Shown piece by piece: positions 45,281 through 49,999 of a stretch of DNA of 55,978 nucleotides. This DNA is from Nitrospirota bacterium. GTDB lineage: Bacteria > Nitrospirota > Thermodesulfovibrionia > Thermodesulfovibrionales > Dissulfurispiraceae. The stretch is from assembly GCA_021791055.1 (NCBI GenBank), contig JAJYXI010000012.1:14865-70842 (forward strand). The letters run 5' to 3'. The first letter of the stretch is position 1. Every line of letters starts with the position of its first letter. The position numbers and the translations under genes were made by a program. The notes below the pieces were generated by a model. The model saw only the letters and a list, made by a program, of their open reading frames with translations. It made no database searches and was not told the DNA's origin.

Positions 45281-45337
45281 ATCTGTTAATCTATCATTTT
45301 TCAATTATCAGGGTCAAAGTATGCTAAAATTGTGTTC

Positions 45338-46225
45338 ATGGACATACATCAGCTCAAGGTATTCGCATCTGTATTCAAAAATAAGAGTTTTTCAAGGGCA
45401 TCCGAAGAGCTTTACCTCACGCAGCCTACGGTGAGCGACCATGTCAAGGCACTTGAAGAGGAACTTAATTGCAAACTATTTGACAGGCTGGGCAGGTCAA
45501 TTATTCCAACAAAAGAGTCGGAGGTTTTATATAACTATGCGATAGAAATTATAGAGAAAACCAATAGCATCAAAGACATCATTGGCCAGTTCAAAAAAGA
45601 AATCACAGGGGAGCTAATCATTGGTGCAAGCACAATCCCCGGCACATATTTGATGCCCCGTGTTATTGCGGACTTCAAAAGACAGCACCCCTCGGTTTCT
45701 TTTCAGGTAATCATATCCGACTCTAAGGTGATAATAGAAAAGGTTTCAAGCCATGATTTGCTTATGGGAATCGTCGGAGCAAAGTTAAGCAACGGACAGC
45801 TTAATTTCGTGCCCTTTTTGGAGGACGAATTAATCGTTGTGTCTTCCCCTTCACTGATAAAAAAAGGCACGATAACATTGGAGGGGCTAATCCAAATGCC
45901 CATGATTTTAAGGGAAGAGGGCTCAGGAACCAGAAGGGAAACAGAAAAGATCATGGAAGGAAGAGGCATTGCCCTCGACAGCATAAAGATTTCAGGGGTA
46001 TTCGGCTCAACAGATGCAGTAAAACAGGCAGTGAAAGGCGGCATGGGGATTTCCATACTCTCCAGACTATCAGTTGCCGATGAATTGAAGTTTAAGACAC
46101 TCAAGGAAATAAGGGTGAAAGACATCCGGATGAAAAGGAAGTTCTATATCGTCACCCATAAAAAGAGAACACTGCCGGCGGTATATGGCATATTTCTGGA
46201 GCATCTAAAAGCGCACAATAAATAA
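45338..46225 (+). CDS. LysR-family regulator, possibly selenium/sulfur-related
   Basis: Start at ATG 45338 (MDIHQLKVFASVFKNKSFS). 295 residues: winged helix SFSRASEELYLTQPTVSDHVKALEEELNC split as usual, then the effector domain with GELIIGASTIPGTYLMP and RVIADFKRQHPSVSFQVI. Directly downstream are the tRNA-yedE unit and later a yedF-like gene; a LysR subgroup is known to accompany selenium genes, so control of that region is plausible (inference). CysB-like effector sensing is an alternative. Confidence 0.85.
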   Translation: MDIHQLKVFASVFKNKSFSRASEELYLTQPTVSDHVKALEEELNCKLFDRLGRSIIPTKESEVLYNYAIEIIEKTNSIKDIIGQFKKEITGELIIGASTIPGTYLMPRVIADFKRQHPSVSFQVIISDSKVIIEKVSSHDLLMGIVGAKLSNGQLNFVPFLEDELIVVSSPSLIKKGTITLEGLIQMPMILREEGSGTRRETEKIMEGRGIALDSIKISGVFGSTDAVKQAVKGGMGISILSRLSVADELKFKTLKEIRVKDIRMKRKFYIVTHKKRTLPAVYGIFLEHLKAHNK

Positions 46226-46314
46226 AGCCTGCCAGTTTCGCCACGCTAACCCATAAAACAAGATCCCATTGTCCTATAAATCCATCCTATTATTATATTA
46301 TAGATATTTTCTAT

Positions 46315-46344
46315 TTGACTTATTGAATATTCCTATCATATCAT
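46315..46344 (+). promoter_or_regulatory. Promoter of the tRNA-yedE transcription unit
   Basis: TTGACT (46315-46320), 18-bp spacer, TATCAT (46339-46344). The predicted start (about 46351) lies 55 bp before the mature tRNA end, so the primary transcript would contain the 5' hairpin, the tRNA and yedE. Confidence 0.5.
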
Positions 46345-46373
46345 ATTGTTTTGAACATCCTCTTAGGGGGATT

Positions 46374-46402
46374 CCGCAACGGGGATAGTATCCCCCTTGC
46401 GG
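46374..46402 (+). other. Strong 5' hairpin directly before the tRNA
   Basis: CCGCAA-C-GGGGAT-AGT-ATCCCC-C-TTGCGG: 12 paired bases with one C-C mismatch and a 3-nt loop, ending 3 nt before the tRNA acceptor stem. No T-run, so it does not look like a terminator. It could steer RNase P processing or be a regulatory leader element. Confidence 0.65.
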
Positions 46403-46405
46403 ACT

Positions 46406-46532
46406 GGGGGGTATGGGGCTGTTAGCTGCCCCACCTGGTCTGCAAAACCAGAGTCACGGTAAAAGGCGGGTCTCATAAACCTGTTTCTTTGGAAGAAGCC
46501 GTGGTGGGTTCGATTCCCACTACCCCTCTCCA
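46406..46532 (+). tRNA. tRNA-Cys(GCA)-like RNA with tRNA-Sec architecture and very long variable arm
   Basis: Acceptor 8 bp GGGGGGTA (46406-46413) with TACCCCTC (46521-46528, one G-U); discriminator T46529; encoded CCA 46530-46532. D stem of 6 bp TGGGGC/GCCCCA (46414-46419/46428-46433) follows with no bases 8-9; its loop TGTTAGCT lacks GG. Anticodon arm CTGGT-CTGCAAA-ACCAG (46435-46451), anticodon GCA at 46442-46444. Variable arm of about 52 nt closed by CACGG/CCGTG (46455-46459/46499-46503). T arm GTGGG-TTCGATT-CCCAC (46504-46520). The 8/5 acceptor/T geometry and 6-bp D stem are tRNA-Sec traits; GCA and U73 are cysteine identity elements. It may charge with Cys or be a tRNA-like regulator. 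Confidence 0.68.
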
Positions 46533-46553
46533 AAATATTAGCAGGAGGCATGC

Positions 46554-47642
46554 ATGGAAGAGATATCACAGGCAAGCATCATGGTTTTACTCAGCGGTTT
46601 GTTGGTTGGTGTTCTATTTGGTTTTGTGCTCCAAAGGGGACGATACTGTATGAATTCAGCATTCAGGGATATTATATTTGTCAACGACTTCACCCTCTTC
46701 CGTTCATACCTCCTTGCACTTTTAATTGCAATAATCGGCGCCAACTTCCTTGAAGATTTGGGATTTATGGGAGAATTAGGGTTAAGGCGGCAGTCCTTCA
46801 ATATAGTTGCAAATATCGTTGGCGGTTACATTTTTGGTATCGGAATTGTAATGGCCGGAGGATGCGGAAGCGGAATTGTCTACAGGACAGGAGAAGGATA
46901 TGTCTCTGCCTTTGTTGCTACGCTCGGATTTGCATCGTCTCTGGTTGCATCAATTCACGGCCCCCTTAAGCCGTTTATACAATTTCTAAAGAGCTTCAAA
47001 GTATCCATAGGAAGCGGCGAAGATGCTGTAAGCAACCCTGCCTTATGGGATCTGTTCGGCGGGCAGTCCATGAAATGGATAGCTGTTATGGTAATTGCAG
47101 CCATAATCATCCCGATTGTGTTAAAAGGCAAGCCCTTTGCAAAAGGGCCTAAAAAGGGGTATTCATGGTCGCTCACAGGATTATTACTCGGTCTTATCCT
47201 GATACTGGCACTATGGGCATCGAATTACTGGGGAGGACAGACGAGGGGGCTTTCGGCTGCAGGGCCGACAGCAGAGGCTTTTCTTGCATTAACAATGGGT
47301 AGCAGCATGTCAAAATTTGATCCCATGTTCGATTTCTGGGGGATATTCAGAGGGACATGGAGCGGGTTATATATTTTCGGCATTCCACTGGGCGCTTATA
47401 TAAGCGCAAAGGGACTTGGAGAATTCAAATTACAGTCACCACCTGCAAGCGAGATCATGAGGGTCTTCGGCGGCAGTCTTGTGATGGGATTCGGCGCTGC
47501 AACAGCAGGTGGATGCACAGTGGGACATGCACTGACAGGCGTTTCTTCATTGGCATTATCAAGCATTGTAGCCACCATATTCATGATCCTCGGCAACTGG
47601 ACAATGGTCTATTTCATGTTCGTCAAACCCATGAAGGATTGA
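46554..47642 (+). CDS. YeeE/YedE-family transporter (sulfur/selenium-linked)
   Basis: 362 residues, about ten helices. Conserved cysteines are in GFVLQRGRYCMNSAFRD, VMAGGCGSGIVYRTGEG and TAGGCTVGHALTG, as in the thiosulfate-type transporter family; members next to yedF and sel genes are proposed selenium importers. It is 21 bp after the tRNA with AGGAGG as ribosome-binding site and likely shares its transcript. It is followed by a cytochrome-like gene and a terminator at 48241-48272. Confidence 0.88.
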   Translation: MEEISQASIMVLLSGLLVGVLFGFVLQRGRYCMNSAFRDIIFVNDFTLFRSYLLALLIAIIGANFLEDLGFMGELGLRRQSFNIVANIVGGYIFGIGIVMAGGCGSGIVYRTGEGYVSAFVATLGFASSLVASIHGPLKPFIQFLKSFKVSIGSGEDAVSNPALWDLFGGQSMKWIAVMVIAAIIIPIVLKGKPFAKGPKKGYSWSLTGLLLGLILILALWASNYWGGQTRGLSAAGPTAEAFLALTMGSSMSKFDPMFDFWGIFRGTWSGLYIFGIPLGAYISAKGLGEFKLQSPPASEIMRVFGGSLVMGFGAATAGGCTVGHALTGVSSLALSSIVATIFMILGNWTMVYFMFVKPMKD

Positions 47643-47730: not shown

Positions 47731-48219
47731 ATGTCTGAAAACAACAATCTGTCGAGGAGAGAAATTATTGCCGGAGCCAATATAGCATCCAACCTTATCA
47801 TCGGCCCGAGGATTGCAGGTCCTGATTGCGAACACGGTCATGTCATCGGATCAAATATAATGAAGTGGTACGGCGATACAAATCTGCCGGTATATGTTCC
47901 AAAGAATCCAAAGGCAAATAAAGACAAGATTGTCATGACCACAAGCAACTCGCCTCTCTGCCATATATCGGTCGGCAGATGGATGAAGGCATCAGGCTAT
48001 GCATTAGGCAGCAATGAAAGAAAGGACAGGTGTGCAAGGGTTGCTGCAAGCGTTGCCTATAAGCTCGTTGAGGATCTGAATGCATGGAAGGATGGCAATT
48101 ATAAGAAAAATGTTGAATGGACAGCAGCAAAAAGCGTTGGCATCACCGGACAGCAGAACTGCACGGACTGTCATGGGACAAACGTGCCCGCAGCGCCGCG
48201 ACCGGCAAAATCCAAATAA
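47731..48219 (+). CDS. C_GCAxxG_C_C / split-Soret cytochrome-like protein with one CXXCH
   Basis: 162 residues. NSPLCHISVGRWMKASG, ERKDRCARVAASVAYKLVEDLN and the C-terminal heme motif NCTDCHGTNVP resemble split-Soret cytochrome c and the C_GCAxxG_C_C family. The N-terminus LSRREIIAGANIAS looks like a weak twin-arginine region, but the hydrophobic core is poor, so export is uncertain. It is the last gene before a strong terminator in the tRNA-yedE unit, suggesting a redox role linked to the transported sulfur or selenium species (inference). Confidence 0.68.
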   Translation: MSENNNLSRREIIAGANIASNLIIGPRIAGPDCEHGHVIGSNIMKWYGDTNLPVYVPKNPKANKDKIVMTTSNSPLCHISVGRWMKASGYALGSNERKDRCARVAASVAYKLVEDLNAWKDGNYKKNVEWTAAKSVGITGQQNCTDCHGTNVPAAPRPAKSK

Positions 48220-48272: not shown

Positions 48273-48389
48273 TAATTGCTTTATCATCGACCATATCTAT
48301 CAATTCATATCCAACCATTGAAATTAACTATTGGAATTACGACTTTTGAAATGGTTATGCTTTTAAAACATTTAAGTGGAGGTTTATGT

Positions 48390-49409
48390 ATGCGCATTTC
48401 AAGATCGCTGGTTTTCGTGGTTTTACTTCTCTTTCTTCTGTCTTTGCCCCATCTTTCCATTGCAAAAGAAAGGAAGGTAAGAGTTACAGTAGAGGTGAAT
48501 TTGAATGCACCGCCTGATGCAAAGAATGTCTGGCTATGGATTCCCTATCCAATGTCTGATGAAAATCAGGATATTACCGATGTGAATATCAATGGTAACT
48601 ATGCATCAGCAGGTATTTACAGGAATGCAAGACATGGCAATAACATGCTTTATGCAGAATGGAAAGAAGCTAAAAAGGAAAGAGTATTGACCTACTCATT
48701 CAATGTAAGAAGAGAAGAGCATATTACAAAAGGCTTCCCAAAAAAGGAGTTGTCTATTTCAGAAGATGAATTCAGCAAATACCTTGAGCCAACAAGCAGT
48801 TGTCCTACAGGCGGGAAAGTAAAAAGGTATGCCGATAAAATAACAAAGGGTAAAAAGACCATACGTGCAAAGGCAAGGGCAATTTATGATTGGATTGTCG
48901 ACAATATGCATCGTGATCCAAATATTAAGGGCTGCGGGTTTGGAGAAGTGGAAAGACTCTTAGAGACAAAGGGCGGCAAATGTGCGGATATTCATTCTGT
49001 CTTTGTTTCCCTTGCAAGGGCTGCAGGAATTCCAGCAAGGGAGGTCTTCGGCATCCGCATACCAAAGGGTAAAGAGGGGGATATGACAAAAGCACAGCAC
49101 TGCTGGGCAGAATTTTATCTTCCAGGATATGGATGGGTTGTGGTTGACCCGGCAGATGTAAGAAAGGCGATCCTTGAGCAGAAGCTGACATTAGAACAGG
49201 CGAAACCATTGAGGGAGTATTATTTCGGTGCTGTGGATGAAAGCAGGATAGCATTCGGAACAGGAAGGGATATTATGCTGAATCCTTCACAGAGCGGAGG
49301 CCCTTTAAATTATTTCATGTATCCGTATGCAGAGGCTGACGGAAAACCGTTGAACGAGGATTTATTCGGATTCAATATCGGCTATAAGATAAGTTTCAAG
49401 GAGGAATAA
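48390..49409 (+). CDS. Exported transglutaminase-like protein
   Basis: Start at ATG 48390 (MRISRSLVFVVLLLFLLSL), chosen because GGAGG lies 7 bases before it; earlier in-frame starts fall in the intergenic region. 339 residues with a signal peptide. The catalytic core shows GGKCADIHSVFVSLARAAGIP (Cys), AQHCWAEFYLPGYGW (His) and VVVDPADVRK (Asp). It would cleave or cross-link peptides in the periplasm. The stop overlaps the yedF-like start (TAATG), so the two are co-translated. Confidence 0.87.
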   Translation: MRISRSLVFVVLLLFLLSLPHLSIAKERKVRVTVEVNLNAPPDAKNVWLWIPYPMSDENQDITDVNINGNYASAGIYRNARHGNNMLYAEWKEAKKERVLTYSFNVRREEHITKGFPKKELSISEDEFSKYLEPTSSCPTGGKVKRYADKITKGKKTIRAKARAIYDWIVDNMHRDPNIKGCGFGEVERLLETKGGKCADIHSVFVSLARAAGIPAREVFGIRIPKGKEGDMTKAQHCWAEFYLPGYGWVVVDPADVRKAILEQKLTLEQAKPLREYYFGAVDESRIAFGTGRDIMLNPSQSGGPLNYFMYPYAEADGKPLNEDLFGFNIGYKISFKEE

Positions 49410-49999
49410 TGCTCATTGATGCAAGGGGACACGGCTGTCCTAAGCCGATAATAATGGCTGAGGAGGCACTGTCAAAAATAGAAGAAGGCATTGTGGATGT
49501 GCTTGTGGATAACGAGGCTTCTGTAAAGAACCTCTCAAGATTTGCAGCGAAGAATGCCTTTTACTCAGAAACAACAAAAGAGGATAACTACTGGCGTGTA
49601 AAGATTGTCAAGGGTTATCCCTGTGAATTGCCTGCTGAAGAAAAAAAGCCAAAAGAAACCGAAAAAGATCTGTTACTTATAATCGGCTCTGATGTTATGG
49701 GCAAAGAAGATGATCTGGGCAAAATCCTTATGAAAGCATTCTTTGAAACCGTGAAGGTAACAAAGGAAATTCCTCATACGATCTTCTTTCTAAATGCTGG
49801 AGTAAAACTTACAACTGTCAATGAAGAAATTGTTCCTATCTTAAAAGAGCTTGAGACCATGGGTGTGGAGATATTTTCATGCGGAACATGCCTGAAGCAT
49901 TACAACCTTGAGTCAGAATTAAAGGTTGGTTATAGAGGCACTACAAATCATATCGTGGAAGGGATGAAGGATTTTAAAAAGACTGTTTGGATAGGATAA
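49409..49999 (+). CDS. yedF: YedF-like sulfurtransferase-like selenium-metabolism protein
   Basis: 196 residues. N-terminal TusA-like domain LIDARGHGCPKPIIMAEEAL with the conserved Cys, then a DsrE-like domain LLLIIGSDVMGKEDDLGKILMK and VEIFSCGTCLKHYNLE. This two-domain form is the YedF type linked to selenium metabolism by genome context. It overlaps the transglutaminase stop and converges with the cysteine desulfurase gene, overlapping it by 26 bp. Confidence 0.88.
   Translation: MLIDARGHGCPKPIIMAEEALSKIEEGIVDVLVDNEASVKNLSRFAAKNAFYSETTKEDNYWRVKIVKGYPCELPAEEKKPKETEKDLLLIIGSDVMGKEDDLGKILMKAFFETVKVTKEIPHTIFFLNAGVKLTTVNEEIVPILKELETMGVEIFSCGTCLKHYNLESELKVGYRGTTNHIVEGMKDFKKTVWIG

Follow-up and report, generated by a model that had tools for sequence, protein, structure and literature searches.

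A tRNA-Cys gene with tRNA-Sec architecture in a selenium-gene context of the Thermodesulfovibrionales, and its possible role at selenocysteine codons

The window analysed here, a stretch of 55,978 nucleotides from a Nitrospirota bacterium (GenBank assembly GCA_021791055.1, contig JAJYXI010000012.1, positions 14,865 to 70,842 of the forward strand), holds a gene that joins the body of a selenocysteine tRNA (tRNA-Sec) to the anticodon and discriminator base of a cysteine tRNA (tRNA-Cys). This combination, pointed out in an earlier note made from the sequence alone, raises the question of whether the gene is a genuine tRNA, which amino acid it carries and which codons it serves. The features of the locus are collected in Table 1.

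Table 1. Features of the tRNA locus and neighbouring genes, with positions counted from the first base of the window.
Feature	Position	Strand	Basis
LysR-type regulator, selenium subfamily (LysR_Se)	45332-46225	+	NF040786 LysR_Sec_metab 307.8 bits (cut-off 250); PF03466, PF00126
Conserved promoter/operator box, ATAGATATTTTCTATTTGACTTATTGAATATTCCTAT	46300-46336	+	Consensus comparison across upstream regions
Sigma-70-like promoter TTGACT-18-TATCAT, overlapping the box	46315-46344	+	Consensus scan, 10/12 matches
Hairpin in the leader that separates promoter and tRNA (7-bp and 6-bp helices parted by a C/C mismatch)	46373-46403	+	Reading and fold
tRNA-Cys(GCA), tRNA-Sec architecture (8/5), 127 bases	46406-46532	+	Direct reading, fold, alignment
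Anticodon GCA	46442-46444	+	Read in anticodon loop CUGCAAA
Variable arm, 52 nt, branched (CACGG/CCGUG stem bearing two inner hairpins)	46452-46503	+	Reading and fold
T arm GUGGG-UUCGAUU-CCCAC, 5-bp stem	46504-46520	+	Same as canonical tRNA-Sec T arm of the order
Shine-Dalgarno AGGAGG for the next gene, 10 nt 3' of CCA	46543-46548	+	Reading
YeeE/TsuA-like sulfur (or selenium) transporter	46554-47642	+	PF04143 Sulf_transp 224.6 bits
Transglutaminase-like protein	48276-49409	+	PF01841; near the tRNA in 8/46 named loci
YedF, sulfurtransferase-like selenium-metabolism protein	49409-49999	+	TIGR03527 207.3 bits (cut-off 110)

Direct reading of the gene gave an 8-bp acceptor stem with one G-U pair (GGGGGGUA at 46406-46413 against UACCCCUC at 46521-46528), followed directly by a 6-bp D stem (UGGGGC/GCCCCA) with bases 8-9 absent. 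The 8-nt D loop (UGUUAGCU) is without GG, the discriminator U73 lies at 46529 and CCA is encoded at 46530-46532. Free folding of 46407-46533 with ViennaRNA returned the same cloverleaf and branched variable arm (-50.3 kcal/mol, z -2.1). The tRNA-Sec architecture described in the earlier note, that is the 8-bp acceptor, 6-bp D stem, missing bases 8-9, 5-bp T stem and long arm, was therefore seen both by reading and by folding, and the cysteine identity elements that it had named were read directly. The tRNA-Sec hallmarks G73 and UCA are replaced by U73 and GCA, and an ordinary 7/5 tRNA-Cys is ruled out by the acceptor length, the missing bases 8-9 and the 52-nt arm. The gene is real and complete.

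Covariance models, a check put forward in the earlier note, gave a divided answer. The Rfam tRNA-Sec model RF01852 matched the gene end to end with 44.3 bits (E 6.7e-8), short of its gathering score of 47, and an Rfam scan at gathering level had no match at 46406-46532. Many of the relatives' copies exceed 47 bits. ARAGORN at default thresholds made no call for the 127-base tRNA and called the seven short-armed relatives tested tRNA-Cys(GCA). Annotation can thus overlook or mislabel such tRNAs, as several relatives lie above the Rfam tRNA-Sec cut-off yet are called tRNA-Cys or missed by ARAGORN. An Rfam mir-5904 match was far under threshold and was taken as chance.

To follow the gene through its order we compared 120 genomes of Thermodesulfovibrionales. 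A motif search found homologues in 54 of them, about half, with one listed match (G110) looking spurious and with most of the genomes being draft or metagenome-assembled, so that missing genes may reflect assembly loss. A BLAST search with the tRNA in the 120 relatives placed no demand on the anticodon, and all 30 of the loci found in this way and fetched carry GCA and U73. U73 was present in every homologue extracted from the order by a procedure that demanded a GCA-type loop. A scan of named genomes, in which GCA was fixed by design, detected copies in Thermodesulfovibrionales (Nitrospirota), Thermodesulfovibrio sp. N1 among them. It also detected Chloroflexota and Thermoleophilia copies that have GCA and U73. 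Several pattern matches outside Nitrospirota were adjacent tRNA genes or tRNAs with a 7-bp acceptor and so differ from the tRNA studied.

Conservation of the paired arms among relatives, which the earlier note had set as a check, was clear. In 47 aligned homologues and a 29-pair structure, 91.5% of cells were paired, compared with 49-61% when the partners were slid, and double changes occurred at 21 of the 29 pairs against a shuffle mean of 13.2. None of 500 shuffles reached any of the observed measures. Because the slid and shuffled controls fall short, the stem pairing is not due to chance. The 5-bp T stem without a bulge also holds across the order. The GG-less D loop and large variable arm that had been noted as odd are indeed features of the host, with a 52-nt arm in same-genus copies, whereas in most of the order the arm is 22-34 nt long and the D loop reads UGGU or UGGC. 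The long arm and expanded D loop are recent and local to the genus.

This tRNA belongs to a known but rare kind, the selC*-type tRNA-Cys (Mukai et al. 2017, NAR), for which we draw on a review (PMC7609411). As described there, selC* tRNAs come from Firmicutes, Thermodesulfobacteria, Nitrospirae and Proteobacteria, fold as 8/4 with a bulged A51a and carry GCA (or UCA) and U73; selB* lies downstream in Syntrophobacterales and Desulfobacterales, and some lineages have cysS* as well. The host tRNA shares the tRNA-Sec-like body with its 8-bp acceptor, 6-bp D stem and long variable arm, together with GCA and U73, and the second selB downstream recurs in one group of Thermodesulfovibrionales. It differs from selC* as described in that review in its full, unbulged T stem, an unusual 8/5 form, and in its LysR_Se/YedF/YeeE operon, conserved box and 52-nt arm. 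The likeness to a published tRNA-Sec-like tRNA-Cys claimed in the earlier note was therefore borne out, but the published form is given there as 8/4 and not 8/5. A further relative is the tRNA-Cys(GCA) of Desulfotomaculum nigrificans, also shaped like tRNA-Sec, which is reported to insert Cys at Sec UGA codons (Vargas-Rodriguez et al. 2018, in PMC11415595) and by experiment was delivered by SelB with no EF-Tu interaction (PMC11415595). SelB-mediated insertion of Cys at UGA is reported from experiment in D. nigrificans, whereas for the host tRNA we infer it from comparison.

We then asked how the tRNA relates to the selenocysteine machinery of its host. The host genome (2.55 Mb, 99.75% complete) holds an ordinary tRNA-Cys(GCA) elsewhere, selA and a single selB, the latter on another contig than the tRNA. 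This covers most of the machinery that the earlier note had listed to be looked for; a canonical tRNA-Sec was not found in the assembly. In the same-genus genomes G001 and G002 the canonical tRNA-Sec lies near a tRNA-Ser, and synteny in the host genome breaks exactly there (contig 5, L155, from about 9850 onward), with selA and selB intact in the assembly. Canonical tRNA-Sec genes of relatives carry UCA and, in 20 of 20, G73, and coexist with the GCA/U73 tRNA. They share with the host tRNA the 8-bp acceptor and long variable arm, and differ from it in anticodon, discriminator, acceptor and D arm sequence and locus. The T arm is common to 19 of the 20 and was absent from the 30 ordinary tRNA loci of the host genome whose T arms were read. 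Descent from selC, suggested earlier, is therefore plausible, and the common T arm could reflect descent and nothing more.

The strongest evidence on the role of the tRNA lies outside the earlier note, in its selenium-gene context and conserved promoter. LysR_Se, YedE and YedF have been proposed as selenium genes from comparative genomics, and the LysR_Se orthologue HrsM is a selenium-dependent regulator in Methanococcus (PMC5322559). At least one of LysR_Se, YedF and SelB was encoded within 1.5 kb of the tRNA at 17 of 30 loci. None of the three lay that close at any of 20 canonical tRNA-Sec loci (p 1e-5 for the difference) or at any of 30 ordinary tRNA loci. A LysR_Se homologue adjoins the tRNA in 13 of the first 30, and among 46 named loci (up to 8 kb) YedF was found at 22, LysR_Se at 12 and SelB at 6. 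In the window the YeeE/TsuA-like gene begins 21 nt past the CCA and is probably co-transcribed with the tRNA; its TsuA-type model score was 251.8 bits, under the cut-off of 400. In other genomes YedF or selB starts 20-60 nt after the tRNA. The arrangement extends to Chloroflexota, where contigs have YedE and YedF around the tRNA, the order YedF-tRNA-selB(start)-LysR_Se was read on a contig, and another has LysR_Se-YedF-tRNA-selD with an in-frame UGA just 5' of the annotated selD frame.

Two minor observations concern the neighbouring genes. A split-Soret-type cytochrome at 47731-48219 is 162 aa long compared with about 255-270 aa in relatives, part of its N-terminal half seemingly lost, and is possibly a broken gene. 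At G097 (L302), L068 and L073, genes near the tRNA resemble, by eye, 2-hydroxyglutaryl-CoA dehydratase subunits or activase.

A 37-bp element, ATAGATATTTTCTATTTGACTTATTGATTATATCTAT, sits 13-16 nt 5' of the tRNA in many genera. Of 82 upstream regions, 34 hold a copy that departs from the consensus by 0-14 substitutions; some genomes appear twice in this set, and shuffles occasionally reach 12-14 substitutions. In the window the box scores 50.8 bits, the next best site scoring 12.9 with its own reverse reading aside, and the exact core occurs at one site in the whole genome. Its distance from the tRNA is 69 nt here because the hairpin-bearing leader lies in between; in same-genus relatives the hairpin is absent and the promoter is 15 nt from the tRNA. 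No box was found at selA or canonical tRNA-Sec loci, and a wide selenium regulon was rejected as genome near-matches were about as frequent as those of a reversed control pattern. The consensus scan gave two sigma-70-like promoters in this region where 0.9 were expected, which makes the overlapping promoter weak evidence alone. The position and dyad form of the box suggest that LysR_Se binds it, and LysR_Se likely controls the tRNA operon.

Pairing with selB offered a second line of evidence. Five named Thermodesulfovibrionales loci have selB 32-40 nt 3' of the tRNA, and the tRNA-linked SelB proteins group in a single clade (support 100/99). Two genomes (G070, G079) have a SelB of this clade plus a second SelB outside it. 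The tRNA-linked proteins keep the residues matching the E. coli aminoacyl-pocket D180/R181, and a private SelB with an altered pocket was rejected as both these and position 42 are unchanged. Within the order the tRNA-selB pairing was seen in a single group, and beyond it on Chloroflexota contigs only; no selB* lies downstream of the tRNA in the host genome. In G117 (L168, L170) there are two tRNA copies with their own selB after each, and a third selB elsewhere.

Presence of the tRNA did not follow that of selA. Among the 120 genomes selA was found in 107, and 6 of the 13 in which it was not detected carry the tRNA, leaving dependence of the tRNA on selA unsupported. In three of these six (G019, G105, G112) selB was found, and in the other three (G007, G061, G097) it was not detected. 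G061 (99% complete) and G097 (96%, two tRNA copies) thus keep the tRNA with neither selA nor selB found, and in G097 LysR_Se and YedF are in the neighbourhood of both copies.

We lean towards a reading in which this is an 8/5 selC*-type tRNA-Cys of a selenium-responsive LysR_Se operon that is carried by SelB and places Cys at SECIS-marked UGA codons when Sec-tRNA is scarce. LysR_Se would sense selenium status, act at the box 5' of the tRNA and turn on the tRNA plus the transporter and YedF genes. CysRS would charge the tRNA with Cys, as GCA and U73 predict, and SelB, more than EF-Tu, would carry the Cys-tRNA, which we propose because the tRNA has the body and T arm of a tRNA-Sec. Selenoproteins would then be finished with Cys in place of Sec when Sec-tRNA runs short. 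The D. nigrificans precedent, as reported in the review (PMC11415595), supports this role, as do the T-arm identity, the SelB clade with the selB and selD adjacency in relatives, the LysR_Se/YedF/SelB context, the fixed-distance box and the host's own selA, selB and ordinary tRNA-Cys. The lack of a canonical tRNA-Sec in the host assembly and the confinement of selB pairing to few groups weaken it. It is also weakened by codon pairing, since GCA pairs imperfectly with UGA and has UGC and UGU as its cognate codons. The main counter-evidence is the retention of the tRNA in G061 and G097.

A selenium-sensing decoding switch would take the SelB/UGA role further and is, we judge, unlikely: LysR_Se would set the level of a SelB-carried Cys-tRNA such that the same UGA is read as Sec or Cys by supply, and in G019, G105 and G112, with selB and the tRNA and no detected selA, UGA would be a SECIS-directed Cys-only codon. 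A tRNA that finishes selenoproteins with Cys would be a natural, regulated ambiguity of the genetic code. The selC* kind is known from few bacteria, and we found no description of its control in the literature searched. Here such a tRNA spans an order and Chloroflexota and is linked to one promoter box and to a regulator predicted to act in selenium metabolism. In one group a SelB paralogue adjoins it, and some genomes retain it although selA, or selA together with selB, has apparently been lost. This spread, regulator link, SelB pairing and the carriers lacking detectable selA or selB allow direct tests of when cells replace Sec by Cys at one codon, and for what reason.

Several other roles were considered. 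In one, EF-Tu would deliver the tRNA, which as a second tRNA-Cys under regulation would read ordinary UGC and UGU codons and boost Cys decoding for the sulfur and selenium proteins of the operon, its tRNA-Sec shape inherited and unused by SelB. This explanation, which we regard as rather unlikely, stays alive because G061 and G097, both near-complete, retain the tRNA although neither selA nor selB was detected in them; GCA is also kept among BLAST-found homologues, and LysR_Se and YedF are the most constant neighbours, more so than selA and selB. It has to contend with a T arm that matches tRNA-Sec and not the ordinary tRNAs read, with a clade of SelB paralogues linked to the tRNA and with the D. 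nigrificans tRNA, reported as SelB-delivered without EF-Tu interaction (PMC11415595).

A non-decoding role appears improbable; here the tRNA, with or without its amino acid, would serve as a sensor, as a sink for SelB or as a leader element tuning YeeE, YedF or selB. The tRNA does lie in the 5' leader, close before the YeeE Shine-Dalgarno and similarly before YedF or selB elsewhere, and processing of a selB-nested tRNA has been proposed as regulation (PMC8124441). But the downstream genes vary while anticodon, U73, CCA and arms are constant, which argues for charging and decoding, and the upstream hairpin is not conserved. The 3' arm of that hairpin could base-pair with the 5' strand of the tRNA's acceptor stem; a conserved switch was rejected given its absence from same-genus relatives and a joint fold that leaves the tRNA intact.

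Insertion of Sec at Cys codons, raised in the earlier note, would make the gene a genuine tRNA-Sec whose sense anticodon serves UGC and UGU, and this we consider very improbable. Its architecture and the lack of any other tRNA-Sec found in an assembly with selA and selB would fit, and Aeromonas provides a precedent of Sec at Cys codons, the A. salmonicida tRNA-Sec carrying GCA (PMC11415595). U73 with GCA fits CysRS, against G73 in all 20 coexisting canonical tRNA-Sec genes of relatives, and the six tRNA-bearing genomes without detected selA also argue against it, as do the GCA-bearing tRNA-Sec genes of the Rubrivivax type, which have G73 and selA/selB as neighbours. That the gene is a decaying duplicate of selC that no longer has a role is hardest to credit, as the expansion of D loop and variable arm in the host genus is set against stems that covary across the order and other phyla, a box conserved at fixed spacing and intact CCA, U73 and GCA.

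The combination of a tRNA-Sec body with GCA occurs in a second form in Rubrivivax, Piscinibacter and other Burkholderiales (L165, L176, L177, L179, L187, L204, L226 and others), where the discriminator remains G73. With selB near 15 of 17 of these loci and selA near 10 of 17, they point to a Ser/Sec identity, in contrast to the U73 of the host tRNA, and are candidates for Sec insertion at UGC and UGU across a betaproteobacterial group.
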